A stretch of 23,207 nt of DNA from Desulfobulbus sp. (lineage in GTDB: Bacteria > Desulfobacterota > Desulfobulbia > Desulfobulbales > Desulfobulbaceae): NCBI GenBank assembly GCA_028684915.1, contig JAQUEZ010000088.1, forward strand, positions 1 to 23,207. Reading direction: 5' to 3'. Every line of letters begins with the position of its first letter. The stretch's first letter is position 1. Positions 3,348 to 17,951 of the stretch are shown here, piece after piece. The notes beneath the pieces were generated by a model. It was not told the DNA's origin, searched no databases, and was given only the letters and a program-made list of their open reading frames with translations. Position numbers and translations under genes: made by a program.

Positions 3348-3378
3348 CTAATTCTGGTCTAATTTTCGTTTGCTATTG
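3348..3378 (+). promoter_or_regulatory. response-regulator box and promoter of the first DUF347 operon
   Basis: CTAATT (3348-3353), five bases, then CTAATT (3359-3364) form a direct repeat with 11-bp period, the architecture of OmpR/PmrA-type activator sites. Eight bases later comes a -10-like TGCTATTG. The second copy, just upstream of the PepSY gene, matches it in both the box and the CTATTG spacing. No good -35 is present apart from the box, consistent with an activator-dependent promoter. The transcript would have a leader of about 140 bases. Confidence 0.65.
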
Positions 3379-3388
3379 AGCCTAGTCA

Positions 3389-3405
3389 CCGTCGATCAAC
3401 GACGG
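3389..3405 (+). other. short leader hairpin
   Basis: CCGTCG (3389-3394) and CGACGG (3400-3405) can pair over a 5-base loop, just downstream of the predicted start of transcription. A G/C-rich run follows but no U-tract. It may stabilise the 5' end of the transcript; its significance is unknown. Confidence 0.35.
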
Positions 3406-3486
3406 CCCCCTCATCAATGGTTGCAACATTTATTTCTCAAATGCTCTCTGAATAAGGAATGAGGGGGGCTTGAAATCGTCTATTCA

Positions 3487-3503
3487 AGTTAACGACGTTA
3501 ACT
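3487..3503. promoter_or_regulatory. 17-bp palindrome upstream of first DUF347 gene
   Basis: AGTTAACG and CGTTAACT flank a single central A, a perfect dyad 18 bases before the first possible start codon. It could be an additional operator or a small hairpin in the leader near the ribosome-binding region. Confidence 0.35.
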
Positions 3504-3521
3504 CTATGTCGATCAGTAATA

Positions 3522-4793
3522 ATGCAACGGAAAAAAATGATGAATTCACATGAAATGAATAATGCAGAAAAGCTGTTCAGCAAAGTTCCTGAGGTTACCT
3601 TATACTTTTGGATCATCAAAGTGCTCTGTACCACTGTTGGTGAAACAGCGGCAGATTTTCTCAATATGAGCCTAGGTCTGGGGCTTGGCGGCACATCGAT
3701 AATTATGGGGGGCCTGCTTGCAATGTCCATGGTTTTGCAATATCGCGCCAACAAGTATATCCCTTCCGTGTATTGGTTGACTGTTGTTCTTGTAAGTGTT
3801 TTTGGGACATTAGTGACAGATTTGCTCACGGATAATATGCATGTTCCTCTCGAAACAAGTACCATCTTTTTCAGTTTGGCATTGGCGGCAACATTTTCAA
3901 TCTGGTTTGTGAGCGAGAAAACGCTTTCCATCCACTCCATTTTCACGGTCCGGCGGGAAACCTTTTACTGGCTTGCTATTCTTTTCACCTTCGCTCTGGG
4001 AACAGCCACCGGCGATCTTATGGCAGAGAGCCTTGGGTTGGGTTATCTGCTGACCGGCTTCATTGTCTGCTTCGTCGTTGCAATCATAAGTATTGCCTGG
4101 AAATTTGGCCTGGATGCCATCCTCTCGTTTTGGATCGTTTATATCATGACCAGGCCCTTGGGGGCTTCTTTGGGAGATTATCTCTCCCAGTCAAAGGCAA
4201 GCGGTGGGGTGGGGCTTGGGCCGACAATGACCAGTGCCTTGTTTTTCACAGCTATTTTGCTGACAGTCATTTTTCTTTCGATAACCAAGCGAGATATGAT
4301 CACCGGCACCATAAAGAACGTAAGGAGGTTACGTTCCCGCAAAGTTGTTTTTGCTCAAGTCGTTTTTGTCCTTACCGCCTTACTCTCTGTTTCTTGGGGA
4401 GGATACTATTGGCGCAATCTAGAGTTGGCGGCCCCTTTAGCCGACAAATCTCTTTCAGCTGAAGGAAGAGAAACCGGTGCAGCCGCATCCCACATGAGGC
4501 CTTTGGGAGATTTGTCCCATTATCGAACTATAAGCGTGGATAGCCTTGCATTGGTCGATTCCGGTAATCTCGTCGAGGCAAAATCAAGGGTGCGAGACCT
4601 GGAGTCTGCCTGGGATCGTGCTGCGGGGAGACTGAGATCGATGGATCAGAAAACCTGGACCAAGGTTGACGGTGCCATTGATTCAGTGCTCCACAATCTC
4701 AGGGCATTTCATCAGGATGCCACGGAGTGCCATGCATCTCTTCTCTCATTGATAACTACGATTGACGCATTAGATCCTGCGGCGCAGCCTTAA
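3522..4793 (+). CDS. DUF347/COG4705 membrane protein with C-terminal helical domain
   Basis: A 423-aa membrane protein built of four DUF347 repeats, each with an aromatic-Trp pair and a T/G...D motif. These are YFWIIKVLCTTVGETAADF (28-46), YWLTVVLVSVFGTLVTD (84-100), FYWLAILFTFALGTATGD (148-165) and LSFWIVYIMTRPLGASLGD (201-219). After a further membrane segment (about 276-298) comes a soluble, probably periplasmic helical domain (about 330-415) with NLVEAKSRVRDLESAWDRAA, followed by DQKTWTKVDGAIDSVLHNLR. The second DUF347 protein in this locus lacks this domain. ATGs at 3537 or 3540 sit better behind a GGA than 3522 does. The promoter carries the shared response-regulator box. The family has no established biochemical function that I know of; the link to envelope stress or metals is inference from context. 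Confidence 0.88.
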   Translation: MQRKKMMNSHEMNNAEKLFSKVPEVTLYFWIIKVLCTTVGETAADFLNMSLGLGLGGTSIIMGGLLAMSMVLQYRANKYIPSVYWLTVVLVSVFGTLVTDLLTDNMHVPLETSTIFFSLALAATFSIWFVSEKTLSIHSIFTVRRETFYWLAILFTFALGTATGDLMAESLGLGYLLTGFIVCFVVAIISIAWKFGLDAILSFWIVYIMTRPLGASLGDYLSQSKASGGVGLGPTMTSALFFTAILLTVIFLSITKRDMITGTIKNVRRLRSRKVVFAQVVFVLTALLSVSWGGYYWRNLELAAPLADKSLSAEGRETGAAASHMRPLGDLSHYRTISVDSLALVDSGNLVEAKSRVRDLESAWDRAAGRLRSMDQKTWTKVDGAIDSVLHNLRAFHQDATECHASLLSLITTIDALDPAAQP

Positions 4794-4967
4794 TAGCTAT
4801 GAAACAAGCACTGCAAGTGCAGCCGCTAGTTTTTTTACTGACAGAATACGTAATGCGAACCTGGTTTTTGATCTCAATAATACTCTCTGTAGCACTGCTG
4901 ACGGGGATGCCAGGTCTCTATTCGTTTCAAAATGAAGGAAAAATCCATTTATTACAGCAGGATTCAT

Positions 4968-5393
4968 ATGAAACCACTGGCTATAGTTTGTCCCGGAATA
5001 AATGGGCGAATACAATTCATGGCTCTACTATTCTCCAGTGTGAGAAGGAAAATCCGCCGGGCTATTGTCGATTCCCGTGGGTATTGCCATACAGTTGGGA
5101 AAATTCGGCGTTTTGTGTTGGTCCATTGCAAAAAAGATTATGTGCAGAGGCAACTGCAAATTCGACAGGGGGAATGTCGACAATGTGGCAGTTGCTGCAA
5201 TCTGGTGTTCACCTGCCCCATGTTAGCCAGACAGGGAAACTGCCGTGTCTATGGAACGTGTCGTCCTCAAGCATGCAAAGTTTTTCCTATTGATCAGCGG
5301 GACACAGACGAAATACGCCTGTGTGGCCACCAGTGTGGCTACCGATTTACAGGAAAAGCCTTGGGCAGGATAGAAATTAAAGAGGAGATTTGA
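4968..5393 (+). CDS. YkgJ-family cysteine cluster protein (CxxCxxCC)
   Basis: A protein of about 141 aa with twelve cysteines. The core [18 protein letters not shown] (residues 69-86) is followed by [19 protein letters not shown] and CGHQCGYRF. This matches the UPF0153/YkgJ zinc- or iron-binding cysteine cluster family, whose function is unknown. The start at ATG 4968 is chosen for the AGGA six bases upstream. The frame is open from ATG 4932, and ATG 5019 is a third option. It ends one base before the DedA start, so the two are translationally linked, and it follows the DUF347 gene on the same strand. A different frame from 4799 also stays open here, but it lacks family resemblance. Confidence 0.8.
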
Positions 5394-5394
5394 A

Positions 5395-5994
5395 ATGTTT
5401 CACCAATGTGTGGTTTGGCTTTCAGAGACTGTTGGTCAGTGGGGGTATCCCGGTATTGTCCTGCTTATGGCCTTGGAATCCTCTTTTTTCCCTTTTCCGA
5501 GTGAGGTGGTGATTCCACCGGCGGCTTATCTTGCGGCAAGCGGAAATATGAATCTCAGCATGGTGATCCTCAGTGGTACAGCGGGAAGCCTACTGGGGGC
5601 ACTGTTCAACTACTGGCTCGCGGTGCAATTCGGCCTTCCTTTTTTGGAAAGATATGGGCGTTACCTACTTATCAGCCCTCATACACTTGAAAAGTCACAT
5701 CTGTTTTTTGAGCGTCATGGGCATATCAGTACCTTTATTGGACGTTTGATTCCTGGAATTCGCCAATATATATCCCTGCCTGCAGGGGTGGCTCGTATGG
5801 GGCTTGCAACCTTTTGTGGAGCAACTGCGCTCGGCGCGGGAATCTGGGTTATGGTGTTGGCCGGGCTTGGTTTTTGGTTTGGGCGCAACGAGCAAATGGT
5901 GCTCCACAACCTGCGCTGGGTTTCCTTAGGGCTGGTGTTTGTCTGCAGTATGCTCGCATTATTATACTGGCTGAAACAAAAACAGAGGATTTGA
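5395..5994 (+). CDS. DedA/SNARE-associated (VTT) family membrane protein
   Basis: A 199-aa protein with the DedA hallmarks: an acidic re-entrant motif [17 protein letters not shown] (26-42) and the paired-arginine motif [18 protein letters not shown] (114-131, R117 and R123), plus several membrane helices. A strong GAGGAG precedes ATG 5395. The family includes undecaprenyl-phosphate flippases (UptA-type) and members needed for polymyxin resistance and membrane potential. That is notable beside an arn operon, whose pathway uses undecaprenyl phosphate. It is the last gene of the DUF347-YkgJ-DedA unit and is followed by a likely terminator. The exact transported lipid is not shown by sequence. 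Confidence 0.92.
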
Positions 5995-6072
5995 CAGAAG
6001 GTACGTTACAAAAAAAAATCATAGGCCAAATCATTCATGCCGAATTATAGGTAGTCTGGCTATTTTTTTTGC

Positions 6073-6123
6073 GGGCGCAAAGGTTGTCGATAACAAGATG
6101 ATCCTTGCGCCTCTTTATTTTTT
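6073..6123 (+). terminator. intrinsic terminator after DedA gene
   Basis: GGCGCAAAGG (6074-6083) pairs with CCTTGCGCC (6103-6111), apart from one bulged A. The stem is followed by CTCTTTATTTTTT. The position after the DedA stop and before the PepSY promoter fits the end of the first transcript. Confidence 0.7.
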
Positions 6124-6164
6124 GGAGACGAGTTGCACAATGCATCTGAAAAAAAATGATCTTT

Positions 6165-6201
6165 CTAATTCTGGTATAATTCTCATTCGCTATTGTATAG
6201 G
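6165..6201 (+). promoter_or_regulatory. response-regulator box and promoter of PepSY gene
   Basis: CTAATT (6165-6170), five bases, then ATAATT (6176-6181), followed after 8 bases by CTATTGTATA. The 31 bases from 6165 match the 3348 promoter at nearly every position, including the -10 region, although the downstream genes are unrelated. This supports a shared regulator, most simply the OmpR-family protein encoded at 7638-8303. Confidence 0.7.
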
Positions 6202-6245
6202 AAACGCGAATAACCGCGTCTCTTCAACTTAGTGGAGTATGAACG

Positions 6246-6602
6246 ATGAAACAGAATGTATTAGCCCCCGCACTTGCCCTTGTCATGGTCTCAATGTCGA
6301 GCGGAGCCTTTGCAAATAGCATGATGCAAAACGATGCTTTAACCACTCCTCCTGCTCAAATCAGCCTGACTAAAGCCATATCTATTGCGGAACAGTATGC
6401 CACGGGAACCGCATCCAAGGCTGAATTGGAGCAGAATGACGATCAATGGGTCTTTGATGTCGAAGTTGTGAATGGTCCCAAAGTCATGGACGTGAAAGTT
6501 GATCCGCAATCTGGAAAGATCCTGGCTGCAAACTTGGATAAGGCTGATCACGATGATGACTGTGACCGGGATGATGACGACGAACACGAGCATAAGGATT
6601 GA
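6246..6602 (+). CDS. secreted PepSY-domain protein with acidic metal-binding-like tail
   Basis: A 118-aa protein. Residues 1-23 form a signal peptide ending GAFA-NS. Residues 38-97 are one PepSY domain: ISLTKAISIAEQ, then WVFDVEVVNG, then VMDVKVDPQSGKILA. The last 20 residues (99-118) are almost entirely Asp, Glu and His with one Cys (C106), a likely cation-binding tail. GGAG eight bases before ATG 6246 supports the start. Single-PepSY periplasmic proteins often sit beside QseBC-like two-component genes and are proposed inhibitors, sensors or metal buffers. Here it has its own box-containing promoter and precedes the second DUF347 gene and the two-component genes. Confidence 0.88.
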   Translation: MKQNVLAPALALVMVSMSSGAFANSMMQNDALTTPPAQISLTKAISIAEQYATGTASKAELEQNDDQWVFDVEVVNGPKVMDVKVDPQSGKILAANLDKADHDDDCDRDDDDEHEHKD

Positions 6603-6614
6603 TGCCTAATGGAT

Positions 6615-6644
6615 TGTGCCGAGGTACCTCAACGCTTCGGCACA
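6615..6644 (+). other. hairpin between PepSY and second DUF347 gene
   Basis: TGTGCCGA (6615-6622) pairs with TCGGCACA (6637-6644) over a 14-base loop that begins GGTACC. No clear U-tract follows, so this may be a weak terminator or processing site. It would let the PepSY transcript read through partly into the DUF347-regulator-kinase genes. Confidence 0.5.
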
Positions 6645-6763
6645 GTCTCTCATTGTATGTAAGCAGATATTCAGTCTCATCCGAACGGGAAAAAACCATC
6701 GGTGAGCAGGAATCACACAATACATAATTTTCCAGTTTGAATTACCCCAAAAGAGGCATGGAT

Positions 6764-7534
6764 ATGAACGGATATCGCCCAAAAAATTTTCAAGTAACCC
6801 TGAGTAAAGTTCCGCAGGTAACCCTTCTTTTTTGGATTATAAAAATTGCAGCAACCACCCTGGGGGAGACGGGCGGTGATACGGTTTCCATGTCGTTGAA
6901 CCTGGGATATCTTTTGGGAACAGCTATTTTTGCTGGCATTTTTTTAGTTGCGGTTGCCGCACAAATCAAGGCCACTGCATTTCATCCTTCGCTCTATTGG
7001 ATAACTATTATTGCAACCACCACCGTTGGTACCACCTTGGCGGATTTTGCAGACCGTTCGCTGGGCATTGGCTATGCTGGAGGATCGCTGCTATTGTGTG
7101 GCCTTCTCGGCATGTCTCTCATTGTATGGTACCGATCCATGGGAACAATTTCAGTGCAATCGATCAACTCGGCCCAAGCTGAAACCTTCTACTGGGTTAC
7201 CATCATGTTCTCCCAGACACTGGGAACCGCCCTGGGGGATTGGACCGCCGATACTGCCGGCCTGGGATACAGCGGTGGGGCTGTGATTTTCGGTGGACTT
7301 CTGATCCTCCTTGTTGCCGCATATTATTGGACCAATATTTCCCGCACCCTGCTTTTTTGGGCAGCTTTTATCCTCACCCGCCCCTTGGGTGCAGTGGTTG
7401 GCGATTTTCTCGACAAACCGCTGAGCTCCGGCGGCATGGCCTTAGATCGGGCAACCGCATCGTTTGTGCTTTTTACCTTCATGTTGGCGTGTATACTGTT
7501 CTTTAAGCAAAAAGCGGCCGAAACTGCACATTGA
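6764..7534 (+). CDS. DUF347/COG4705 four-repeat membrane protein
   Basis: A 256-aa protein with four DUF347 repeats: LLFWIIKIAATTLGETGGD (21-39), LYWITIIATTTVGTTLAD (77-94), FYWVTIMFSQTLGTALGDW (142-160) and LLFWAAFILTRPLGAVVGD (196-214). It is a paralogue of the protein at 3522, sharing SKVPQVTL-FWIIK at the N-terminus, but lacks that protein's C-terminal domain and ends at the last membrane helix. ATG 6764 is chosen because AGAGG lies seven bases upstream; the frame also extends to a TTG at 6737 and an ATG at 6758. It lies between the PepSY gene and the response regulator. Function unknown; each repeat is thought to contribute two membrane helices. Confidence 0.88.
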   Translation: MNGYRPKNFQVTLSKVPQVTLLFWIIKIAATTLGETGGDTVSMSLNLGYLLGTAIFAGIFLVAVAAQIKATAFHPSLYWITIIATTTVGTTLADFADRSLGIGYAGGSLLLCGLLGMSLIVWYRSMGTISVQSINSAQAETFYWVTIMFSQTLGTALGDWTADTAGLGYSGGAVIFGGLLILLVAAYYWTNISRTLLFWAAFILTRPLGAVVGDFLDKPLSSGGMALDRATASFVLFTFMLACILFFKQKAAETAH

Positions 7535-7637
7535 AGATTTCAGTATACCTGTGAACGACGGATATGAACTTGTACTTTGTAATCACAGTCATTCCCGTGT
7601 CGTGAAAGGGGAATGGCACAACCTGAAGGACAAAGTG

Positions 7638-8303
7638 ATGCGCGTATTACTGGTTGAAGATGATCCGATGATTGGTGCGGCTATCCAGGATGCCCTTAAG
7701 GATGCTTCATATGCCGCCGATTGGGTCAAGGATGGGCAGGCAGCACTTGATAACCTCCAATTCCAACAGTACGACATCCTGCTTTTGGATTTGGGACTGC
7801 CGGGAAAAGATGGGGTGGAAGTGCTGCAACATGTGCGAGCCCGGAAAAACTCTATCCCCTTATTGATCATTACTGCCCGCGATGGATTGGATGATAGGAT
7901 TCGCGGTCTCGATGAGGGGGCCGATGATTATGTGCTCAAACCCTTTGCCATGGCGGAGTTGTTGGCCCGCATGCGTGCTGTGTTGCGGCGCAAGGGCGGC
8001 TCGGCTTCCCCCCTGTTAACCAATGGCATCGTCAGCTTGGATCCCGTGACCCGGGAGGCGACAGGCCCAGTCGGAACATCTGTTCAACTTTCCAGCCGCG
8101 AATTTGCACTCCTTCAGGCATTGCTTATTCGTCCCGGCGCCATTCTCTCTCGTAGTGAGTTGGAGGACCGCATCTACAGCCTAGGGGAAGAGGTTGAGAG
8201 CAACGCTGTTGATTTCTTCATCCATGCGATTCGCAAGAAACTGGGAAGCGAGGTTATCAAGAACATTCGAGGGGCGGGCTGGATGGTCGCAAAAAGCGCA
8301 TGA
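7638..8303 (+). CDS. OmpR-family response regulator (QseB/PmrA-like)
   Basis: A 221-aa regulator. The receiver domain has the acidic pair D8/D9, phosphoacceptor D51 in LLLDLGLPGKDG, T79 and K101 in YVLKPF. The C-terminal winged helix has SSREFALLQALLIRPGAILS and NAVDFFIHAIRKKLG. This pattern is that of the QseB/PmrA/BasR group. ATG 7638 is supported by a GGA seven bases upstream and by homologues that start MRVLLVEDD; the frame is open further upstream, but that part overlaps the DUF347 gene. It overlaps the kinase by four bases (ATGA). The group recognises direct repeats with 11-bp period, and three such boxes occur in this locus, so it is the best candidate for their regulator. Confidence 0.95.
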   Translation: MRVLLVEDDPMIGAAIQDALKDASYAADWVKDGQAALDNLQFQQYDILLLDLGLPGKDGVEVLQHVRARKNSIPLLIITARDGLDDRIRGLDEGADDYVLKPFAMAELLARMRAVLRRKGGSASPLLTNGIVSLDPVTREATGPVGTSVQLSSREFALLQALLIRPGAILSRSELEDRIYSLGEEVESNAVDFFIHAIRKKLGSEVIKNIRGAGWMVAKSA

Positions 8304-9757
8304 AGAGGCGGGCAGGGAACAACGAGCAGGTGAAGAGCAAGCACTGGCACAAAGAAGTGTTCCGCAAGTGTATAGGTATTATTTCATCGCATGTTCCACG
8401 GACGATGCACCTTGATTCCCTGCAGGGCCGGTTGGCGCTATGGCTCTCTGTCGCCATTGTTGGCGTTGGCGTGATAGCGGGCATTTTTGCCTTTGTCAGT
8501 GCCTTTATCGAGGCGCATGAGATGCAGGATGATATGCTGTCTCAGGTGGCCGCCTTGTTGCAACAAAACGGTCTAACTGTTCTACCGGCTACTGCATTAG
8601 GGGAACGGGTGGTCAGTGATCCGGAATCTCGTCTATTGGTGCAGATGCTTCCGAACACACAAAAAACTAGAAAACAGAATACAAACAATCCTTCATCTAT
8701 CGTATTACCGGCTCAATTATCCGATGGACTGCATACGGTACGGGTGCACCACAAAGATTACCGGGTTATGTTGAAAACATGTGCCTCGAATCAAAGGCTT
8801 GCCGTAGCGCAGGAGACGGAGTTTCGTGATGAAATTGCCCGGGACAGTGCCTTGCGTACCTTGCTTCCGTTTCTTTTTTTAGTACCACTGTTGCTCATTG
8901 TCGCTTCCTTCCTCATCCGCACAATATTTGCTCCGATTACGCACCTTTCGCGCCAATTAGACAGCCGAAGTGAACAGGAGTTGCACCCCGTTGCTGTCGA
9001 AACCTTCCCGCTAGAGGTTCGCCCCTTTGTCGGTGCCATTAATCGTCTCTTCAAACGAGTGGATCAATCCATGACCCTGCAGCGGCGATTTATTGCCGAT
9101 GCCGCCCATGAGCTACGTTCGCCCATGACCGCTCTTTCCTTACAGGCAGAGCGGCTGGCGCAGGCTGACATGTCTGGCCCTGCCAGTGATCGGCTCCATA
9201 CTTTACGTCAGGGGCTTGATCGGGCAAGAAAGTTGTTGGATCAGTTGCTCACCTTCGCCCGTGCTCAGTCAACGAGTAGTCGATCAGGTATAAGGCTGTC
9301 CGTGCAGCAGCTTTATCGGCAGGTGTTGGAGGATTTGCTCCCTCTGGCCGAGGCCAAATCGATTGACATCGGGGTTACTACTGCTGCAGATGCCCAGCTT
9401 GAGGTTGATGCCGTTGATCTTCTTACCCTGGTAAAAAATGTGGTGGATAACGCCATTCGCTACACACCCTTCGGTGGGCGGGTCGATCTTTCGGTCGGAC
9501 TTGACCCGGAAACCGTGCTTCTGGAGGTTACGGACAGTGGTCCCGGTATTCCTGAAGAGGAGCGATTGCGAGTATTTGATCCTTTTTACCGGGTCCTGGG
9601 GAGTGAACAGATTGGCTCGGGTCTGGGATTGTCCATTGTTCAGACCATTGCCCAACGTATCGGGGCGAGGATCACGCTTGAAACGGCCGATCCGCAGACT
9701 GGAAGCGGTCTGCGGGTGAATATAACCCTGGCACGGGGAAATGAAGCACGACAATAA
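8300..9757 (+). CDS. QseC-like sensor histidine kinase
   Basis: A 485-aa kinase. Two membrane helices (about 45-70 and 189-210) enclose a periplasmic region of about 120 residues. It then has a HAMP-like linker, the H-box FIADAAHELRSPMTAL with H270, the N-box NVVDNAIRYTP (380-390), G1 DSGPGI (412-417) and G2 GSGLGL (439-444). LQGRLALWL near the first helix is typical of QseC/PmrB-type kinases. The coupled start at 8300 overlaps the regulator stop. An internal ATG at 8405 (MHLDSLQGRL) matches family N-termini better, so the first 35 residues are uncertain. It is almost certainly the partner of the upstream response regulator. The signal is unknown; cationic peptides or metals are plausible. 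Confidence 0.93.
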   Translation: MKRRAGNNEQVKSKHWHKEVFRKCIGIISSHVPRTMHLDSLQGRLALWLSVAIVGVGVIAGIFAFVSAFIEAHEMQDDMLSQVAALLQQNGLTVLPATALGERVVSDPESRLLVQMLPNTQKTRKQNTNNPSSIVLPAQLSDGLHTVRVHHKDYRVMLKTCASNQRLAVAQETEFRDEIARDSALRTLLPFLFLVPLLLIVASFLIRTIFAPITHLSRQLDSRSEQELHPVAVETFPLEVRPFVGAINRLFKRVDQSMTLQRRFIADAAHELRSPMTALSLQAERLAQADMSGPASDRLHTLRQGLDRARKLLDQLLTFARAQSTSSRSGIRLSVQQLYRQVLEDLLPLAEAKSIDIGVTTAADAQLEVDAVDLLTLVKNVVDNAIRYTPFGGRVDLSVGLDPETVLLEVTDSGPGIPEEERLRVFDPFYRVLGSEQIGSGLGLSIVQTIAQRIGARITLETADPQTGSGLRVNITLARGNEARQ

Positions 9758-9877
9758 TGGGTTTCAGATTTTTCTCTGCTTTTAAACCAGAAGTTTCATT
9801 TATTTTTGTGACATTTCCCAGGGGTGTTTTTATAGCCTCTGTCACGTTATTTTTTGTAAAAAATATTCTGTACGGGC

Positions 9878-9908
9878 CTAATTCTGGCCTAATTCTATAG
9901 TGATATGT
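9878..9908 (+). promoter_or_regulatory. response-regulator box and promoter of small-protein gene
   Basis: CTAATT (9878-9883), five bases, then CTAATT (9889-9894), and after 8 bases ATATGT as -10. This is the third copy of the box in the locus with the same box-to--10 distance. It drives the 69-aa gene at 10005, with a leader of about 95 bases. Confidence 0.65.
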
Positions 9909-10004
9909 TGCTGCTAGCTACAGATATGAAGTTACTTGTCGAGTCATTTGTTATCTAGGTAACATGCTGATTATAAAAATAATTTTCACGCCAAGGAGGG
10001 TCGT

Positions 10005-10214
10005 ATGAATATCAGCAATATCAATGGATCGCAGGCAAATAATTTGTACCAGCTTCATACCCAGAAGGCTAGCAGCCCGACATCGCAGAAAATGCAGCAG
10101 GTACAGCAACAAGGCTCAACTGAAGAGAGTCGTGAGAGTGGCGCGGAAAAAATCCGAGAAGCCAAATCTGGAGGAGAATCGAAAGAATCCAAGGCTATAA
10201 ATTTTTATGCCTAA
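10005..10214 (+). CDS. small hydrophilic protein, putative regulon member
   Basis: A 69-aa protein rich in Ser, Glu, Gln and Lys. It begins MNISNINGSQANNLYQLHTQ and ends SKAINFYA, with no signal peptide, no membrane segment and no recognised domain; it is probably disordered. A consensus AAGGAGG lies five bases before ATG 10005, so translation should be efficient. The response-regulator box upstream places it in the same regulon as the PepSY and DUF347 genes. Its TAA stop lies inside the target duplication of the MITE that follows, so the insertion just preserved the reading frame end. Function unknown. Confidence 0.8.
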   Translation: MNISNINGSQANNLYQLHTQKASSPTSQKMQQVQQQGSTEESRESGAEKIREAKSGGESKESKAINFYA

Positions 10215-10336
10215 CAGGCTGTTGAAAAAGGGATTTTGGGCTCGATCGCTACACTACATATCGAATGATACCGAGCGAAGCTTCTATTCATAGTGGGTGC
10301 AAGACACCATTTTGGAGTTTTTCAACAACCTGCTAA
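10211..10336. mobile_element. 118-bp MITE with 4-bp target-site duplication
   Basis: CAGGCTGTTGAAAAA (10215-10229) and TTTTTCAACAACCTG (10318-10332) form a 15-bp terminal inverted repeat with one mismatch. CTAA flanks both sides (10211-10214 and 10333-10336) as a perfect 4-bp duplication of the YTAR type used by IS5-like elements. The 118-bp element has no coding capacity and would need a transposase supplied elsewhere in the genome. Confidence 0.8.
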
Positions 10337-10577
10337 TGCTCACCTGTTTTTGAAAGTGAAACCCTTCGTCGAAGCCCTTAATCAGACGTTCAATTCGTAA
10401 AAGGGGCTACAAGTTCCCAAGAAAATAGGTTTACCCGTCGAACAAGTAGATCGAGATGACCGTGCGGGCAGGATAATTTCCATGCTGTTCGATGCAGGGA
10501 TCAAAACCTTCACTATTAACGAAAGAGAGGCTTCTAAAGAATCCGTGGGTGGCAGGGATATTTTGCGAAGTTTATAG
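10337..10577 (+). pseudogene. possible decayed coding fragment
   Basis: After the MITE, one frame reads HLFLKVKPFVEALNQTFNS, a TAA at 10398-10400, and then about 58 open codons. Those include EQVDRDDRAGRIISMLFDAG and FTINEREASKES, ending at TAG 10575. The composition looks protein-like, but there is no good start or ribosome-binding site and I do not recognise a family. It may be a degraded gene or chance. The rest of this gap up to the arnB start holds the direct repeat at 10612-10628 and the arnB leader. Confidence 0.25.
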
Positions 10578-10611
10578 CTACAGATTCGTTGGAAGACACC
10601 TCTTTTTCAAT

Positions 10612-10628
10612 CTTCATCTTTTCTTCAT
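10612..10628 (+). promoter_or_regulatory. candidate 11-bp-period direct repeat upstream of arnB
   Basis: CTTCAT (10612-10617), five bases, then CTTCAT (10623-10628), about 95 bp before the arnB start. The geometry is that of an OmpR-family site, but the half-site differs from CTAATT and no convincing -10 sits at the expected distance. It is a weak candidate for control of the arn operon by a two-component system. Confidence 0.3.
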
Positions 10629-10721
10629 ATGACTTTGGTTAAGGTGCCGCTCTCCTCAGATTGGGTAAGGCGAGATCCATAGGATTCGTTGTTACAATTT
10701 CAGATCAACCATAAAGAGACA

Positions 10722-11873
10722 ATGATACGATCAACATTTCTGCCGTTTTCAAAACCGTCCATCTCCGAGGCTGAAATAGAGGCGGTTGCCGAAGTCATGC
10801 GATCCGGTTGGATTACCACCGGTGCCAAGGCGCTAGCCTTTGAACATGCCTTTGCCGAATATTGTAAGGCACCGGGTGCCGTGGCCTTAAGTTCCGCCAC
10901 CGCCGGTATGCACCTGCTGCTCGTTGCCATGGGCATCGGTCTTGGAGACGAGGTGATCACCCCCTCGCTAACCTGGGTTTCAACGGTGAATCTGATTCGT
11001 TTGCTCGGGGCGACCCCAATCTTTGCTGATATCGACCGCGATACCTTGATGGTGACGCGGGAGACGGTGGAACCGCTGATCACCGAGCGGACCAGGGCGA
11101 TCATTCCGGTCCATTTTGCCGGTGCAGTTGTGGATCTGGAGCCACTGCGGCAACTGGCGGTGGCGCGCACCCTTCCCCTGATCGAGGATGCAGCCCATGC
11201 CGCCGGTAGCGAATACCGGGGTGAGCGGATCGGACAAAGGGGCACGACGATTTTTTCCTTTCATCCGATTAAAAACCTGACCTGCGGTGAAGGCGGTATG
11301 TTCTGCTCGGATGATGCGGATCTGCTCGAGCATATCCGCCGTCTGAAATTCCACGGTCTTGGTGTGGATGCCTTTGACCGCACCATGCAGGGACGTTCTC
11401 CCCAAGCCGAGGTCCTGGAACCGGGGTTCAAGTATAACCTCACCGATATGGCGGCTGTCCTTGGTCTAGGGCAGCTGGAGCGGTTGGATGGATTCATCGA
11501 AAAGCGTACCCAGCTGGCCGAGCGCTACCTCGAATTGCTCGCCGAGGTGCCAGAGATCCAGCCGCTGGGACGTCCTGACTATCCTATGCGTCACGCCTGG
11601 CATCTGTTTATCGTTCGGGTCAACTCCAAGAAAATAGGCATGGATCGGGACCGGTTCATGGCAGCGCTGAAAGAACGCAATATCGGCACAGGCATCCATT
11701 TCAAGGCGGCCCATCTGCAACGTTACTACCGCGAAACCATGCCCCAGACCAAGGGCTCTCTGGTCAACACCGAATGGAACTCGGAGCGTCTCTGTTCGCT
11801 GCCTTTGTTTCCGGATATGCGCCTGGAGGATGTTGATGAGGTGGTGCTGGCCATCAAGGAGGTGCTTGCATGA
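10722..11873 (+). CDS. arnB: UDP-4-amino-4-deoxy-L-arabinose aminotransferase
   Basis: A 383-aa PLP-dependent aminotransferase of the DegT/DnrJ/EryC1/StrS family, matching ArnB over its full length. [20 protein letters not shown], then SGWITTG and [19 protein letters not shown] are typical. The PLP lysine is K184 in [16 protein letters not shown]. It converts UDP-Ara4O to UDP-Ara4N with glutamate as donor. ATG 10722 is preceded by AAGAGA; the frame extends to a TTG at 10689, which is less likely. It overlaps arnC by four bases (ATGA). It is the first gene of the arn operon. Confidence 0.95.
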
Positions 11874-12877
11874 TTGATAGTCCCGAAATTTCCGTGGTTA
11901 TTCCGGTCTACAACGAGCGGGAAAACCTGACTGAACTCATTGATCGTTGCCTTCAAGCCTGCCGCGGCATGGAGCGCAGTTTCGAATTGATCCTTGTGGA
12001 TGACGGCAGCCGCGACGGTTCCCGGACCATGATTCTTGAGGCTGCTGACCAGCACGATGAACTCGTCGGCATCATTCTCAACCGCAACTACGGCCAGCAT
12101 GCCGCTGTTTTTGCCGGCTTGCAGCAGAGCAGGGGAGAGATCGTCATTACCCTGGATGCGGACCTGCAGAATCCGCCGGAAGAGATCCCTAACCTGGTCC
12201 TGGCCATGGATGAGGGCGTTGATGTGGTAGGGACAGTCCGTGAAAACCGGCAGGACAGCCTTTTCCGCCGGGTAGCCTCAGGCCTGGTCAACCGTATGGT
12301 GCAACAGTCGACAGGGGTGATGATGCATGACTACGGATGCATGCTCCGCGCCTACCGACGCCCGATCGTCGAGGCCATGCTCCAGTGTTCGGAACGCTCC
12401 ACCTTTATCCCCATTCTCGCCAACAGCTTTGCCGGCAGCACCGCTGAGATCTCTGTCCAGCACGCACGCCGCGAAAATGGGCAGTCCAAGTACAGCTTTT
12501 TAAAACTGATCAGCCTGCAGTACGACCTGCTGACCTCAATGTCTACCTTCCCCCTGCGCTTGTTGTCATTTCTTGGCGTGGTCATCTCCCTTTGCGGAAT
12601 CGGTTTTGGTGGTCTGCTGATGGTACTGCGGGTGATTTATGGCGCATCCTGGGCAGCCGAAGGGGTGTTCACCCTCTTTGCCCTTCTTTTTGTCTTTATC
12701 GGTGCCCAGTTTATCGGACTTGGTCTGCTCGGTGAATACATTGGCCGAATCTACCATGATGTGCGTAGCCGCCCACGCTTCTTCATTCATGAAATCAGGA
12801 GAGCAGGGGATTCAACAGGGTTTCAAGTCTCAACGCATCCGTCTGTCAACGCAGCTGAACAGCACCTTTTTCAATAA
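11870..12877 (+). CDS. arnC: undecaprenyl-phosphate Ara4FN transferase
   Basis: A 335-aa GT2 glycosyltransferase. [26 protein letters not shown] (41-51) and [13 protein letters not shown] (95-107) are the donor and metal-binding motifs. Two C-terminal membrane helices (about 230-258 and 265-290) end in [12 protein letters not shown], as in ArnC and DPM1-like enzymes. It transfers 4-deoxy-4-formamido-L-arabinose from UDP to undecaprenyl phosphate on the cytoplasmic side. A GGAGG inside the arnB end precedes the overlapping ATG. Confidence 0.94.
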
Positions 12878-12894
12878 TTATTCAGGAGAGTTTC

Positions 12895-14886
12895 ATGAAA
12901 GCTGTCGTTTTAGCCTATCATAACATCGGATGCACCGGTATCAAGGCCTTGCTTGCCCAGGGATTTGAAATAGAGGCCATCTTTACCCACCACGACAATC
13001 CGCAGGAAAACATCTGGTTTGATTCAGTGGCCGAGTTGGCCGCTCTCCACAATATTGCCGTCTATGCACCCGAGAATATCAACCATCCCCTGTGGGTGGA
13101 CAAGATTCGGGAGATGCAGCCTGATGTGCTCTTTTCTTTTTATTACCGCAATATGGTGGGACAGGAGATCCTCTCCATTCCATCCTCCGGATGTATCAAT
13201 CTCCATGGTTCGCTGCTGCCCCGTTACCGGGGACGTTGTCCGGTGAATTGGGTGTTGGTGCATGGGGAAAAGGAAACCGGGGTTAGCCTCCACTACATGA
13301 CCCCCAAACCCGACGACGGCGATATCATCGCGCAAAAAAAAGTTTCCATTGATGATGAGGACACCGCCCTAACCCTTTTTGCCAAAATGGATCAGGCAGC
13401 GGCGGCGCTGTTGGATGGAGAACTGCCCAAAATCAAAACCAGGACTAATGCGCGTGTTCCCCAGGATGCGGGCTTAGCCAGTTACTATGGCGGACGTGGG
13501 CCCCAGGACGGTGAGATCCACTGGCACCAGAGCGCTGTGGCAATTCGCAATCTCGTTCGCGCCGTTACCCGGCCTTATCCCGGGGCCTTTACTTATCTGG
13601 TCAACAGCAAGTTCATTGTCTGGCAGGCCAGTATCGTTGCCAGTCCTCAAACGGCAGTCCCCGGGACGGTCATCGCCACCAATCCGCTGACCATTGCCTG
13701 CGGCGAGGATGCGCTGCGAGTGGAATTCGGGCAGGTTGAAAACGGGGTTTATCTGGGCGGCGCTCGACTGGCCGAGGAGTTGAACCTGGCGGTCGGAATG
13801 CGCCTTAATGGACGGATGGGGGATATTGCCCAGCTGCGACAGAAAAAGCAGGTCCTCATCCTCGGGGTGAACGGCTTTATCGGCAACCATCTGAGCAAAC
13901 GTTTGCTTGACAGCGGTCACTATGTGGTGCACGGCATGGACCTAGGCACAAGCAGTATTCAGCACCTACTCGGCGAGGCTGATTTTCATTTCACCGAAGG
14001 CGATATCTCGATCATGCGCGAATGGATCGAGTATCATGTGCGCAAATGCGATGTCATCCTGCCGTTGGTGGCTATTGCCACTCCGATCGAGTATGTACGT
14101 AATCCTCTGCGCGTTTTTGAGCTCGATTTCGAAGAAAACCTGCGGGTTGTCCGTTACTGCGCCAAATACGGAAAGAGACTGATTTTCCCGTCCACCTCCG
14201 AAGTGTATGGCATGTGCCAGGATACGGAATTCGATGAACAGCAGTCAAATTTTGTCCTTGGCCCCATCCACAAGCAACGCTGGATTTACTCATGCAGCAA
14301 GCAGATGCTCGATCGAGTTATCTGGGCCTATGGGGCCAGCGAAGGATTACCGTTCACTTTGTTCCGCCCCTTCAACTGGGTCGGGCCCAAGCTCGATTCC
14401 CTCCAGTCCGCGCGAATCGGCTCCTCTCGGGTTATCACCCAGTTTATTTTGAATCTGGTGGAAGGGACGCCCATCCGGCTGGTCGACGGTGGGCGGCAGA
14501 AACGGTGCTTCACCGATGTCAACGATGGTGTCGAATGTTTGTACCGCATCATCGAGAACAAGGATGATTGCTGCAACAGCCGCATTTTCAATATCGGCAA
14601 CCCGGACAATGAGTACTCCATGCAGGAGTTGGCCGACATCCTCCGGGAGAAGTTTGCCGCCCATCCCCTGCGCGACCATTTCCCACCGGAAGCTGGCACG
14701 CAATACATCGAGGCCCGTGCCTTTTACGGCAAGGGGTACCAGGATGTGCAGCACCGGCGGCCATCGATCCGCCAGGCCCGCACCATTCTTGGTTGGGAAC
14801 CGAAGGTGCGCTTTGAAGAGTCGGTAGGCGCAACCTTGGACTATTTTCTCCAGGATTGGGTCCAAAGCCAGCTGGTGGGTGCATGA
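12895..14886 (+). CDS. arnA: bifunctional UDP-Ara4N formyltransferase / UDP-glucuronate oxidative decarboxylase
   Basis: 663 aa, close to the 660 of E. coli ArnA. The N-terminal formyltransferase domain (1-300) has N102 and H104 in [13 protein letters not shown] and D140, the known catalytic trio. The C-terminal SDR decarboxylase domain (about 315-660) has [15 protein letters not shown] for NAD binding, then the STSEVYG motif whose Ser-Glu pair is catalytic. AGGAG precedes the start, 17 bp after arnC. It makes UDP-Ara4O from UDP-glucuronate and formylates UDP-Ara4N. No ugd gene is present in the window, so UDP-glucuronate must come from elsewhere. Confidence 0.96.
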
Positions 14887-15812
14887 TTCCAGTCGGCCTG
14901 CGGGTGGATGTGGATACCCTACGCGGAACCCGTATTGGGGTGCCAAATCTGCTCGCTCTTTTTGCGCGTCATCAGATTCAGGCCACCTTCTTTTTCTCGG
15001 TGGGGCCGGATAACATGGGCCGCCATCTCTGGCGATTGCTGCGGCCAGGGTTTCTTTTCAAGATGCTGAGAACCCGGGCCGCAAGCCTCTACGGCTGGGA
15101 CATCCTCCTCAAGGGAACCCTATGGCCGGGACCTGCAATCGGTAAACGGTGTGCGCCGATTCTGAGGAGGACCTCCGAGAAGGGCCATGAAGTAGGGCTG
15201 CATGCCTGGGATCATCACCGGTGGCAGTCCCGATTACCCCGGATCGCTCCCAAATCAATTGAAGCGGATCTCCGTCGCGGTTATGAGACCCTTGCCCACA
15301 TACTGGGCAAGGAGCCAACCTGCTTTGCCGCACCTGCCTGGCAGGTGACACCGGAAGCGCTTTTCGTCCTCGACCAGTTTCCCTTTCGTTTTCAATCCGA
15401 TTGCCGCGGATGGGCACCTTTTCAACCGGTTGTCGCTGGGCACCGTTTTAGTCATCTCCAGGTGCCGACCACCCTGCCTACCTATGATGAACTCATCGGT
15501 CTGCAATGCGATCCTGAGCAGTATAATACGCATCTGCTTTCCCTGATCAAACCCGAGCGGTGTAACGTGCTGACCATTCACGCAGAGGTGGAAGGGGGAG
15601 CATGCCTTGCCCAGTTCGAGGATTTTCTGGACAGAGCGAGAGCTCAGAACATTATGTTTGAACCCCTCGGAGCAACCCTTTCCCGAATCGAGACGATCAC
15701 CGAAGCCTCCATTGTCCAAAAGACTGTTGCCGGCAGGGATGGATGGATCGCCTGCCAGGAAGGGGGGGACGGGATTTCACCCGAAACACCAGGAGCATAT
15801 GTACATGAATGA
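14883..15812 (+). CDS. arnD: Ara4FN-phosphoundecaprenol deformylase
   Basis: A 309-aa polysaccharide-deacetylase (NodB-like) protein. [11 protein letters not shown] holds D9/D11, and [13 protein letters not shown] (102-114) holds the metal-binding and catalytic histidines. HAEVEGG near the C-terminus is characteristic of ArnD. It removes the formyl group from the undecaprenyl-linked Ara4FN, making the transfer irreversible. The ATG at 14883 overlaps the arnA stop (ATGA); an upstream in-frame ATG at 14856 would overlap arnA by 31 bases and is less likely. Confidence 0.94.
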
Positions 15813-17514
15813 CGTGCATCAACAACCAAGAGGGCAGCGGACGATGCTCTACGCCCTCTTGCTTCTGTCTTTTTATGTCCTTGTCTACTTGCTGCCGCTT
15901 GGGGCCCGTGATCTTTTTGTCCCCGATGAGACTCGGTACGCTAAGGTGCCCCGTGAGATGATTGCCAGCGGGGACTGGGTCGTGCCTCACCTCAACGGTC
16001 TACGCTACTTTGAGAAACCGGCTCTAGGCTATTGGGCCCATGCTGGCGCCCAGTTGCTCTTCGGGGAAAATAATTTTGCGGTGCGCTTCCCCTCGGCGCT
16101 CTCCGTGGGCCTTTCGGCCCTGCTTGTGTTTTTATTGGTGCAAAAAGCCCAGTCAAAGCAACTGCAAGAGGATGGGGGATTTGCGCCAATTGCCGCAGCC
16201 CTTGTCTTTCTCTCCAGCTTTGAGGTTTTTGGAGTGGGCAATACCGCAGTGCTGGATAATTTGTTTTCGTTTTTATTAACGGCCTGCACCGCTGCTTTTT
16301 ATTGGGCTACCGAGACGGATCGGGGCAGTTCCCGGGAAAAGGTGTGGCTGGTCTTTGCTGGGCTCTTGTGTGGACTTGCCTTCCTTACCAAGGGATTCCT
16401 TGCTTTTGCCGTACCGATCCTGGCCCTGGTTCCTTACCTGCTTTGGCAGCGCCGCTTCATCGATATCCTGCGCATGAGTTGGTTGCCCATCCTTGTCGCC
16501 GTGATTGTGGCCTTACCCTGGGCGTTGAGTATACACCTGCGCGAGCCTGATTTTTGGAACTATTTTTTCTGGAACGAGCATATACGCCGTTTTGTCGGCA
16601 ATGATGCCCAACATAAGGAGTCGATCTGGTTTTTCTTGCTTGCTGCACCGGCCCTGGTCTTTCCGTGGACTTTTCTCATCCCCGCAGCCGGCGCCGGGAT
16701 CAAAAAGCTCTGGCGTGGTCAGCCGGAATACTCCAGTCTGCTGAAGTTTTGTCTGTGTTGGATGCTGGTTCCTTTTCTCTTTTTCTCGCTCTCGCACGGC
16801 AAGTTGCTCACCTACATCCTGCCCTGTTTTCCGCCCTTTGCCATCCTTATGGGGCTGGGGCTGTTGCAACTCCTGCGGCACAACGGGCAAAGCAGAATGT
16901 TTCGCGGCGGTATTGTCGCTAATGGCCTGCTGTTTGTGCTGCTGCTAATCGCCTTTGTCGGGCTCCAGTTTTTGGGCCTACATGGAGTCAGGCCCTATAG
17001 CCAGGCCTGGAAGGTGATTATGATTGTCAACGGCCTGCTTTTCTTTCTCCTGTTTTGTTATTGGTCCTATCAAGACAAGCGCGCACAAACAAAAGTCACC
17101 TTTGTGGGCATGTCCCTACTCTTTGTCTATGTTTTGGCCCATTATGCGCTTCCGGATCGAACGATCGAGGTGAAATGCCCTGGTCCATTTTTGGAACAAC
17201 ATCGACTGTCCATAGCGCCGGACGATCTCGTTATATCTGATGAGGATTCGATTCGGGCTGTCTGTTGGTACCTGAAACGAAATAATGTCTATAATCTCGG
17301 GCCGGCCGGTGAACTTTCCTATGGCTTTGCGCATCCGGATGCGGCAGGTCGGCTTATTGATCTTGCAGCCGCGCCGGAATTGATTCAGCAGCATCGTGGC
17401 AAGACCGTGATCATTGCCCGTGTTCGGTCTTTTAATCGCTGGCGGGATGGGTTGCCGCCACCTCTCTCGCAGGTTTCCAGTGGGGAAAATGGATATATTC
17501 TCCTGAAATATTAA
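15805..17514 (+). CDS. arnT: undecaprenyl-P-L-Ara4N:lipid A transferase (GT83/PMT fold)
   Basis: A 569-aa multi-spanning GT-C transferase. FVPDETRYAKVPREM (38-52) carries the essential acidic pair in the first periplasmic loop, followed by YFEKPALGYW. About twelve membrane helices and a C-terminal periplasmic domain follow, as in ArnT (about 550 aa). It moves L-Ara4N to lipid A phosphates on the periplasmic face, lowering negative charge and polymyxin binding. AGGAG at 15791 lies nine bases before ATG 15805 and three before ATG 15799; I prefer 15805. It overlaps the arnD end by eight bases. The long upstream open frame inside arnD is not coding. Confidence 0.94.
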   Translation: MNDVHQQPRGQRTMLYALLLLSFYVLVYLLPLGARDLFVPDETRYAKVPREMIASGDWVVPHLNGLRYFEKPALGYWAHAGAQLLFGENNFAVRFPSALSVGLSALLVFLLVQKAQSKQLQEDGGFAPIAAALVFLSSFEVFGVGNTAVLDNLFSFLLTACTAAFYWATETDRGSSREKVWLVFAGLLCGLAFLTKGFLAFAVPILALVPYLLWQRRFIDILRMSWLPILVAVIVALPWALSIHLREPDFWNYFFWNEHIRRFVGNDAQHKESIWFFLLAAPALVFPWTFLIPAAGAGIKKLWRGQPEYSSLLKFCLCWMLVPFLFFSLSHGKLLTYILPCFPPFAILMGLGLLQLLRHNGQSRMFRGGIVANGLLFVLLLIAFVGLQFLGLHGVRPYSQAWKVIMIVNGLLFFLLFCYWSYQDKRAQTKVTFVGMSLLFVYVLAHYALPDRTIEVKCPGPFLEQHRLSIAPDDLVISDEDSIRAVCWYLKRNNVYNLGPAGELSYGFAHPDAAGRLIDLAAAPELIQQHRGKTVIIARVRSFNRWRDGLPPPLSQVSSGENGYILLKY

Positions 17515-17518
17515 TCAT

Positions 17519-17558
17519 TTTTTGGATACCCTCTTATGGGATGGCGGTCATCCAAAAA
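17519..17558 (+). other. inverted repeat after arnT
   Basis: TTTTTGGAT (17519-17527) and ATCCAAAAA (17550-17558) are perfect inverted arms around 22 bases. It spans an alternative ATG at 17541 for the next gene and sits just after the arnT stop. It could be an attenuator or RNA-processing hairpin that lowers expression of the distal genes. It also argues for the start at 17580. Confidence 0.4.
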
Positions 17559-17579
17559 CAGTTGTCCACAAAGGTTCAC

Positions 17580-17951
17580 ATGGCTGTCTATCTTCCTCTT
17601 ATTCTATTCGGCGTCCTCCTGAACGCTGCTGCCCAGCTGGCTTTGAAACAGGGCATGCGCCAGGTCGGATATTTCGACTTCATGCTCAGTAATCTCTCGC
17701 GGATATTTTGGGCAGTTGCCGGAAACGGCTATATCTGGGCAGGATTGACCTGCTATGTCATCAGTGTGGTGGTTTGGCTCTTGGTGCTTTCTCGGGTTGA
17801 GGTGAGTTACGCCTATCCGCTGCTCTCGGTTGGCTATATCGTGACCGCTTGCGCCGGCTGGCTCTTTTTTCAAGAAAATCTGAGCCTGACCCGCTTACTA
17901 GGCATAGCCATTATATGTCTGGGAGTCTACCTCATCACTCGATCATCATAA
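17580..17951 (+). CDS. small EamA/SMR-like protein, probable undecaprenyl-P-Ara4N flippase subunit
   Basis: A 123-aa protein with four membrane helices, starting MAVYLPLILFGVLLNAAAQL. The helix-4 region SYAYPLLSVGYIVTA and the ending LGIAIICLGVYLI are typical of ArnE/ArnF and other SMR-like flippases. E. coli uses an ArnE-ArnF pair; only one such gene is seen here, so it may act as a homodimer or pair with a protein encoded elsewhere. AAGG five bases before ATG 17580 supports this start; ATG 17541 would add 13 residues. The position directly after arnT supports the role. Confidence 0.85.
   Translation: MAVYLPLILFGVLLNAAAQLALKQGMRQVGYFDFMLSNLSRIFWAVAGNGYIWAGLTCYVISVVVWLLVLSRVEVSYAYPLLSVGYIVTACAGWLFFQENLSLTRLLGIAIICLGVYLITRSS

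Follow-up and report, generated by a model that had tools for sequence, protein, structure and literature searches.

Which protein reads a direct repeat that occurs three times within one stretch of DNA, and which genes does it thereby control? The stretch analysed here, called the window, comprises positions 1 to 23,207 of contig JAQUEZ010000088.1 from Desulfobulbus sp. (assembly GCA_028684915.1). A preliminary description had reported CTAATT-N5-CTAATT repeats, or a close form, at 3348, 6165 and 9878, and proposed that the response regulator encoded at 7638-8303 activates all three promoters. Comparison with related loci makes it very probable that this adjacent regulator, an MmfR-like protein of the PmrA/QseB group, binds and activates at the boxes. 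Its predicted targets are two promoters of a 'multiple metal response' (mmf) gene cluster and the gene of a 69-aa protein.

The repeats were indeed present on the + strand, and each was followed by a -10-like hexamer:

3348..3364, + strand: box 1, CTAATTCTGGTCTAATT, 5' of the DUF347 fusion gene; kept in Desulfobulbus rhabdoformis (locus L001, L001:6407)
3374..3379, + strand: -10-like hexamer TATTGA, 9 bp after box 1, without the usual T at position 6
6165..6181, + strand: box 2, CTAATTCTGGTATAATT, 5' of the PepSY gene; kept in D. rhabdoformis (L001:9433)
6191..6196, + strand: -10-like hexamer TATTGT, 9 bp after box 2
9878..9894, + strand: box 3, CTAATTCTGGCCTAATT, 5' of the 69-aa gene
9904..9909, + strand: -10-like hexamer TATGTT, 9 bp after box 3

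The spacing to the hexamers, given earlier as 8 bases, had to be corrected to 9. All three boxes were intergenic relative to the listed open reading frames (ORFs) of at least 60 aa, and the spacer letters CTGG were also common to them. The pattern CTAATT-N5-[AC]TAATT occurred 3 times in the window, compared with a mean of 0.01 and a maximum of 1 in 300 dinucleotide-preserving shuffles, which places the repeats beyond chance in shuffles. When up to two mismatches to CTAATT-N5-CTAATT were allowed, boxes 1-3 remained the sole matches in the window; 30 of 100 shuffles then yielded three or more matches. Hence, the weight of the box count lies in the near-exact copies.

Near-exact boxes recurred in related bacteria. 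A scan of genome contigs gave 384 relatives, and the best 80 of these formed the first locus set. The nearest relative found in this set was D. rhabdoformis (regulator 95% and DUF347 protein 89-91% identical). Sites with no more than one mismatch to CTAATT-N5-CTAATT numbered 22, including the three of the window, in 879 kb of regulator-bearing sequence (48 sequences: 47 loci plus the window). The 33 loci without the regulator (456 kb) contained one such site, located just 5' of a PepSY gene (L072). A second set was chosen by regulator similarity and included ten stretches obtained via DUF347 in one phylum (L139 and L141 counted). A regulator at 50% identity or more was present in 134 of 174 sequences. 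After 29 duplicates with short flanks (L143-L171) and six loci whose regulators were identical had been removed, 99 distinct regulator loci remained. To these we applied a strict rule that left base 5 free and required the hexamer at 9 bp; 'without cluster genes' meant none on the regulator's strand within the stretch fetched. By this rule 57 of the 99 loci had a box: 50 of the 66 with same-strand cluster genes and 7 of the 33 without. Lack of conservation upstream of orthologous genes would, according to the preliminary description, have spoken against a regulon; conservation was seen in many bacteria, and for boxes 1 and 2 it argues strongly against chance.

The form of the box varied between lineages. 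Betaproteobacterial loci, with regulators of about 75% identity, carried CTCAGTGCCAGCTAAGT at the PepSY promoter and CTATGGCTGGCCTAAGT at the mmfC1 promoter, or close forms, and Cupriavidus metallidurans CH34 had box variants at both its mmfA and its mmfC1 promoter. The exact CTAATT-N5-CTAATT was ruled out as a universal box, because in these loci the downstream half is CTAAGT and the upstream half is degenerate. The best half-site across relatives was CTAAKTYT, with an 11-bp period. Two results count against the proposed reading. Sites with exactly two mismatches were not enriched (31 in the regulator-bearing set vs 20 in the other), and 42 of the 99 regulator loci lacked a strict-rule box, 16 of them having cluster genes. 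At least two boxed loci were missed by the rule (L010 and L059); in both, over 450 bp separate the box from the annotated start.

The position of the boxes was nearly constant. Among 78 boxes that were collected without asking for a -10 element, and that did not include box 3, 69 had a hexamer with A2 and T6 exactly 9 bp downstream, and no other offset between 0 and 24 rose above 9. A 17-base box that ends 9 bp before the -10 hexamer would cover the -35 region, as in class II activators of the OmpR family. A box over the -35 region is the class II arrangement in PhoB and PmrA promoters, and here it was found at a fixed distance from the -10 element.

The link between box and regulator was most direct in the recognition helix, for which two features of the window are needed:

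7638..8303, + strand: OmpR-family response regulator (MmfR-like; PF00072 plus PF00486), the predicted box reader
8211..8213, + strand: codon of Asp192 in the recognition helix, the residue that varies in step with downstream base 5

In most loci the helix read SNAV[D/E]F(L/F)IH..R. Asp192 went with a downstream CTAATT and Glu192 with a downstream CTAAGT in all 55 unambiguous loci. When the columns of the regulator alignment were ranked against this base, residue 192 was the sole perfect predictor (1.00 bit), followed by a column that was correct in 51 of 55 loci (0.74 bit). This ranking used 55 of 57 loci and left out L019, which has both bases, and L205, which has C. Counted by locus, downstream base 5 gave 27 Asp-T, 29 Glu-G, one Glu-T and one Glu-C combinations; the later-fetched set alone (L123-L214) gave 12 Asp-T, 10 Glu-G and one Glu-C. 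In a regulator tree built with residue 192 masked, residue and base changed 4 times each, and in the switch on a starred branch the base went the same way as the residue. The Fisher value for the association (2e-15) ignores kinship and is not to be taken at face value.

Several observations count against a strict pairing. Two of the Glu-type loci departed from it, L019 by having a T box as well as a G box, L205 by having C, and a third (L124) carried a second, T-type box. Upstream base 5 was loose (with Asp: T 15, C 11, A 3, G 1; with Glu: G 39, T 3, C 1). Moreover, there were only about 4 independent switch pairs on all branches and 1 on the starred branches. On balance, we find it reasonably likely that residue 192 (Asp/Glu) acts as a one-residue switch for downstream base 5 (T/G), with a looser effect upstream, that it has switched together with the promoters several times in this PmrA-like clade, and that regulators of this clade may, in some bacteria, also have RND efflux operons among their targets. 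The correlation would be an unusually clean case of a change in regulator specificity that was apparently matched by the promoters. We regard it as the most interesting result of the analysis and as the one most open to test, with one substitution and a few oligonucleotides.

Genome-wide scans placed most good sites at the cluster. The exact pattern CTAANTN5CTAATT matched 16 times in 18 genomes; 12 of these matches fell at the cluster, the other 4 elsewhere, and the reversed pattern had 7. These genomes had been preselected, as boxes or the cluster had already been seen at their loci, and the informative figure is therefore the 4 sites elsewhere. Frequent random occurrence of the box, which the preliminary description had listed among possible refutations, was not what we found: in the genomes of relatives, near-exact boxes were few and mostly at the cluster. 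A sequence model (R1) was built from 26 of 31 T-type sites, leaving out two sites of Glu-type regulators (L019, L124) and three of one distant Asp clade (L204, L207, L208). On the window, R1 scored box 1 at 30.0 bits and box 2 at 27.5 bits, both of them training sites, and box 3, which was not a training site, at 19.1 bits (E 3.3e-5); the next match in the window scored 7.2 bits. Of 21 genomes that encode an Asp-type regulator, 20 had their best site 5' of a cluster gene and 1 had it 5' of the regulator gene, with scores of 17.3-33.8 bits (22.9 or more in 19 of 21). The controls were 21 genomes lacking a close regulator, defined by no regulator match at 1e-80 (20 genomes) or 1e-75 (G413) and not matched in base composition; their maximum was 17.2 bits. 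Three points limit the force of this comparison: all best sites except that of G015 (20 of 21) had been training sites, only 150 first-look candidates were scored in 20 of the 21 genomes, and the two weakest best sites (17.3 and 17.5 bits) were barely above the control maximum.

R1 also gave secondary sites. One, in G010, preceded a cytochrome c gene and scored 29.8 bits, almost as much as the cluster site of that genome, and two preceded stretches that lead to PepSY genes, in G740 (20.5 bits) and G807 (19.3 bits; a partial match, with PepSY and DUF347 recognised by eye). Others preceded RND operons: in G004 an operon of the outer-membrane/MFP/RND efflux type (21.7 bits), and operons in G901 (15.1 bits) and G017 (14.5 bits). 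The site in G901 is an exact CTAATT-N5-CTAATT that adjoins a regulator-kinase pair. Boxes of this kind were seen in L245 (1817 and 7439), L246 (2856) and L247 (10050), ahead of outer-membrane/MFP/RND efflux operons and, in L245, also ahead of a PepSY gene paired with a YncE-like propeller gene; two of the three RND sites of L245-L247 scored no higher than control genomes can. We treat a wider efflux regulon as no more than a lead, because the scores in G901 and G017 lie inside the control range and the RND permeases scanned fell under all listed NCBIfam cutoffs, CusA/CzcA included. Elsewhere, away from the cluster, three tandem copies of CTAATTGTCCG were found at G001:C9:14756-14783 (L085/L096); they were not retained as a regulon site, as the nearby ORFs gave, by eye, no clear link.

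Sites, geometry, conservation and covariation were computed; from them we infer binding, phosphorylation, activation rather than repression, and co-transcription. In the mechanism that we propose, two protomers of the phosphorylated regulator would occupy the box in head-to-tail orientation, each on its own CTAATT(CT) half-site, with a period of 11 bp. Lying over the -35 region, 9 bp 5' of the -10 hexamer, they would recruit RNA polymerase by class II (PhoB/PmrA-type) activation. Residue 192, Asp in the window, goes with base 5 of the downstream half, Asp with T and Glu with G. The box 1 promoter would drive the DUF347/MmfD fusion and the genes that follow it, and the box 3 promoter a lineage-specific small gene. 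Transcription from box 2 would cover the PepSY gene and probably run on into DUF347, regulator and kinase; the system would therefore be positively autoregulated.

The third promoter leads to a gene outside the cluster:

10005..10214, + strand: 69-aa small protein, with two metagenome homologues (84% and 72% identical)

Here the best surviving alternative has to be weighed, namely that the regulator binds the boxes and represses, or that the boxes at 3348 and 6165 are functional and the one at 9878, a decoy or relic, has no target. D. rhabdoformis, the closest relative, has no equivalent of the stretch of about 9746-10694 in which box 3 and the 69-aa gene lie, and its arn-like genes come about 200 bp after the kinase; the missing stretch favours a decoy and tells against a regulon of three promoters. 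The same holds for the scarcity of homologues, only two in the protein search and both on contigs of at most 1163 bases. The protein had no match in plasmids or among the ORFs of locus L001, and a simple scan near box 3 returned no terminator and no sigma-70 promoter. Against a decoy, box 3 retains the 9-bp spacing and a TAnnnT hexamer, and it reached its R1 score in a model that was not trained on it. Against repression, a place over the -35 region with an intact -10 hexamer would fit activation, as in PhoB and PmrA promoters. We consider this alternative unlikely, and the 69-aa gene, which has a plausible ribosome-binding site, is taken with lower confidence as a lineage-specific target of the regulator; the third site is less certain because it is missing from the closest relative. 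Hence, activation by the regulator is backed by comparative evidence for promoters 1 and 2, and for the third it is plausible only. Immediately after the 69-aa gene, and within the stretch that has no counterpart in D. rhabdoformis, lies an inverted repeat (10212-10335; 18-base arms, 89% complementary, 88 nt apart) that could be a small mobile-element remnant.

A less probable explanation is that the boxes belong to another regulator, such as the partner of the kinase encoded at 17983-19425 or a PmrA-type paralogue elsewhere, and that adjacency to the MmfR-like regulator is incidental. OmpR-family paralogues can share similar direct-repeat boxes, and members of the clade in other settings are boxed too, as in 7 of the 33 loci that have no cluster genes on the regulator's strand. 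However, base 5 follows residue 192 of the adjacent regulator without exception in the unambiguous loci, and near-exact boxes are enriched where this regulator is present, so we regard a foreign reader as improbable. The second kinase itself (HAMP, HisKA and HATPase domains) had no response regulator recognised beside it among the proteins scanned.

It is very improbable that the conserved element is the -35/-10 pair of a sigma factor, for instance of the ECF type, and not an activator box. The fixed 9-bp distance to the -10 hexamer would be expected of such a pair, but a direct repeat with an 11-bp period that covaries with a response regulator, and whose near-exact copies, in the genomes tested, fall mainly at the cluster, would not. 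Chance likeness of AT-rich promoter sequences can practically be dismissed: it would account for the two-mismatch sites, common in shuffles and not enriched near the regulator, but not for near-exact copies, which shuffles do not match, nor for boxes kept across many bacteria at a fixed promoter place. Activation by the adjacent MmfR-like regulator thus remains the preferred reading.

The genes downstream of boxes 1 and 2 had been described as unrelated. This description did not hold, since the DUF347 and PepSY genes share an mmf cluster with the regulator and the kinase, and the 69-aa protein is the sole outsider. Besides the regulator, the cluster contained the following genes:

3522..4793, + strand: DUF347 protein (PF03988, four stretches) with an MmfD-like part fused on at the C-terminal end, mmfC1 plus mmfD
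4932-5393: small cysteine-rich protein with the pattern CxxCGxCC...CP...GxC..Y..RP..C and without a Pfam match; by eye, presumably YkgJ-like
5395..5994, + strand: VTT/DedA membrane protein (PF09335), weakly like the undecaprenyl phosphate transporter UptA (NF052604, 112.7 bits; cutoff of 250 not reached)
6246..6602, + strand: PepSY protein (PF03413) with an Asp/His-rich C-terminal tail, MmfA-like
6737..7534, + strand: DUF347 protein (PF03988), MmfC2-like, 75% identical to the CH34 copy
8300..9757, + strand: histidine kinase (PF00512 plus PF02518), MmfS-like

With PepSY, two DUF347 proteins, an MmfD part, regulator and kinase together on one strand, the cluster belongs to mmf as judged from its gene content. 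Asp/His-rich tails recurred in most of the PepSY orthologues compared. The first DUF347 protein resembles an mmfC1-mmfD fusion, being encoded by a single gene in the window (423 aa) and in D. rhabdoformis (427 aa); in CH34 (L111) and several other betaproteobacterial loci, mmfC1 and mmfD are separate genes (about 260 and 150 aa). No match to a phosphatase family, such as an mmfB-like gene would give, was found among the window proteins scanned.

Downstream of the cluster, about 475 bp past the 69-aa gene, the window carries arn-like genes (10689-17951), as in the operon for aminoarabinose modification of lipid A: a DegT aminotransferase, a glycosyltransferase, a formyltransferase/epimerase fusion, a deacetylase, a PMT-type transferase and an EamA/SMR-like protein. 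By DNA similarity they are also present in D. rhabdoformis. PmrA controls arn in enterobacteria. We do not claim these genes as box targets; no box was seen between the kinase and the arnB-like gene in locus L001.

How does this system compare with those already described? In the accessible text of the papers cited here, mmf is the 'multiple metal response' set on plasmids pHB44 and pBS64 and consists of mmfA (PepSY), mmfB (undecaprenyl pyrophosphate phosphatase), mmfC1 (DUF347), mmfD (secreted), mmfC2 (DUF347), mmfR and mmfS (PMC4914505). The order mmfA-B-C1-D-C2-R-S occurs on Tn6048 of C. metallidurans CH34 and on plasmids pMOL98, pHB44 and pBS64 (PMC4914505, PMC2864759), and the Tn6048 genes are reported to be induced by zinc and lead (PMC2864759). 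The operons that Frankia up-regulates under lead stress include some that carry DUF347 genes (PMC4531530); mmf genes or pMOL98 are also mentioned in PMC12029693 and PMC4290620. A metal stimulus for the window regulator would follow by analogy with Tn6048. The open-licence texts describe gene content and hypothesised function and not the target site of the regulator, and no box for an MmfR-type regulator was found in this literature, outside which most subscription papers fall. For a cluster that is reported to be metal-induced and that moves on transposons and plasmids, the box thus provides a candidate regulon and a means to look for the mmf regulon in any genome.

The mmf cluster of CH34 shares with the window the PepSY gene, two DUF347 genes, the MmfD part, the regulator (77% identical), the kinase (58% identical) and boxed promoters, which in CH34 precede mmfA and mmfC1. 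The window differs in its fused mmfC1/mmfD, in a gene order that puts the DUF347 fusion ahead of PepSY, in the VTT/DedA gene (5395-5994), in the extra third promoter and the arn-like genes downstream, and in its half-site, CTAATT instead of CTAAGT.

Regulators of the CusR/CopR/CzcR type have the OmpR family and a metal-related setting in common with the window regulator, which scored 168.1 bits on their model (TIGR01387; cutoff of 279.2 not reached), but their boxes are of a different sequence type. The kinase and regulator also match the QseC and QseB models, both under the curated NCBIfam cutoffs: QseC was the best model for the kinase (227.9 bits; cutoff 475), and the regulator scored 193.3 bits on QseB (cutoff 345). 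With receiver and winged-helix domains and an adjacent kinase, the regulator has the make-up of an OmpR/PhoB-family two-component system. Its nearest solved chains were those of BasR (PmrA; 8jo2 and 4s04), and it scored 205.9 bits on the PmrA (BasR) model NF007928, under the cutoff of 330. Published PmrA half-sites, in the accessible part of the source, are YTTAAK in Salmonella, CTTAAT and CCTAAG in Klebsiella, and TTTAAG-N5-TTTAAG in Acinetobacter; they share with the window box the direct repeat, the 11-bp period and the TAAK core (PMC10927774). The window half-site, CTAAKT(YT), differs from YTTAAK by a C before TAAK and a T after it, and the neighbouring genes are unlike those of PmrA. As to the earlier suggestion of a new specificity, the box, judged by core and period, is better described as a variant of the PmrA box than as a new kind. 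Because the curated cutoffs were missed, and the period and TAAK core are shared while the flanking letters differ, we describe the regulator as one that works like PmrA at its box, rather than as PmrA itself.

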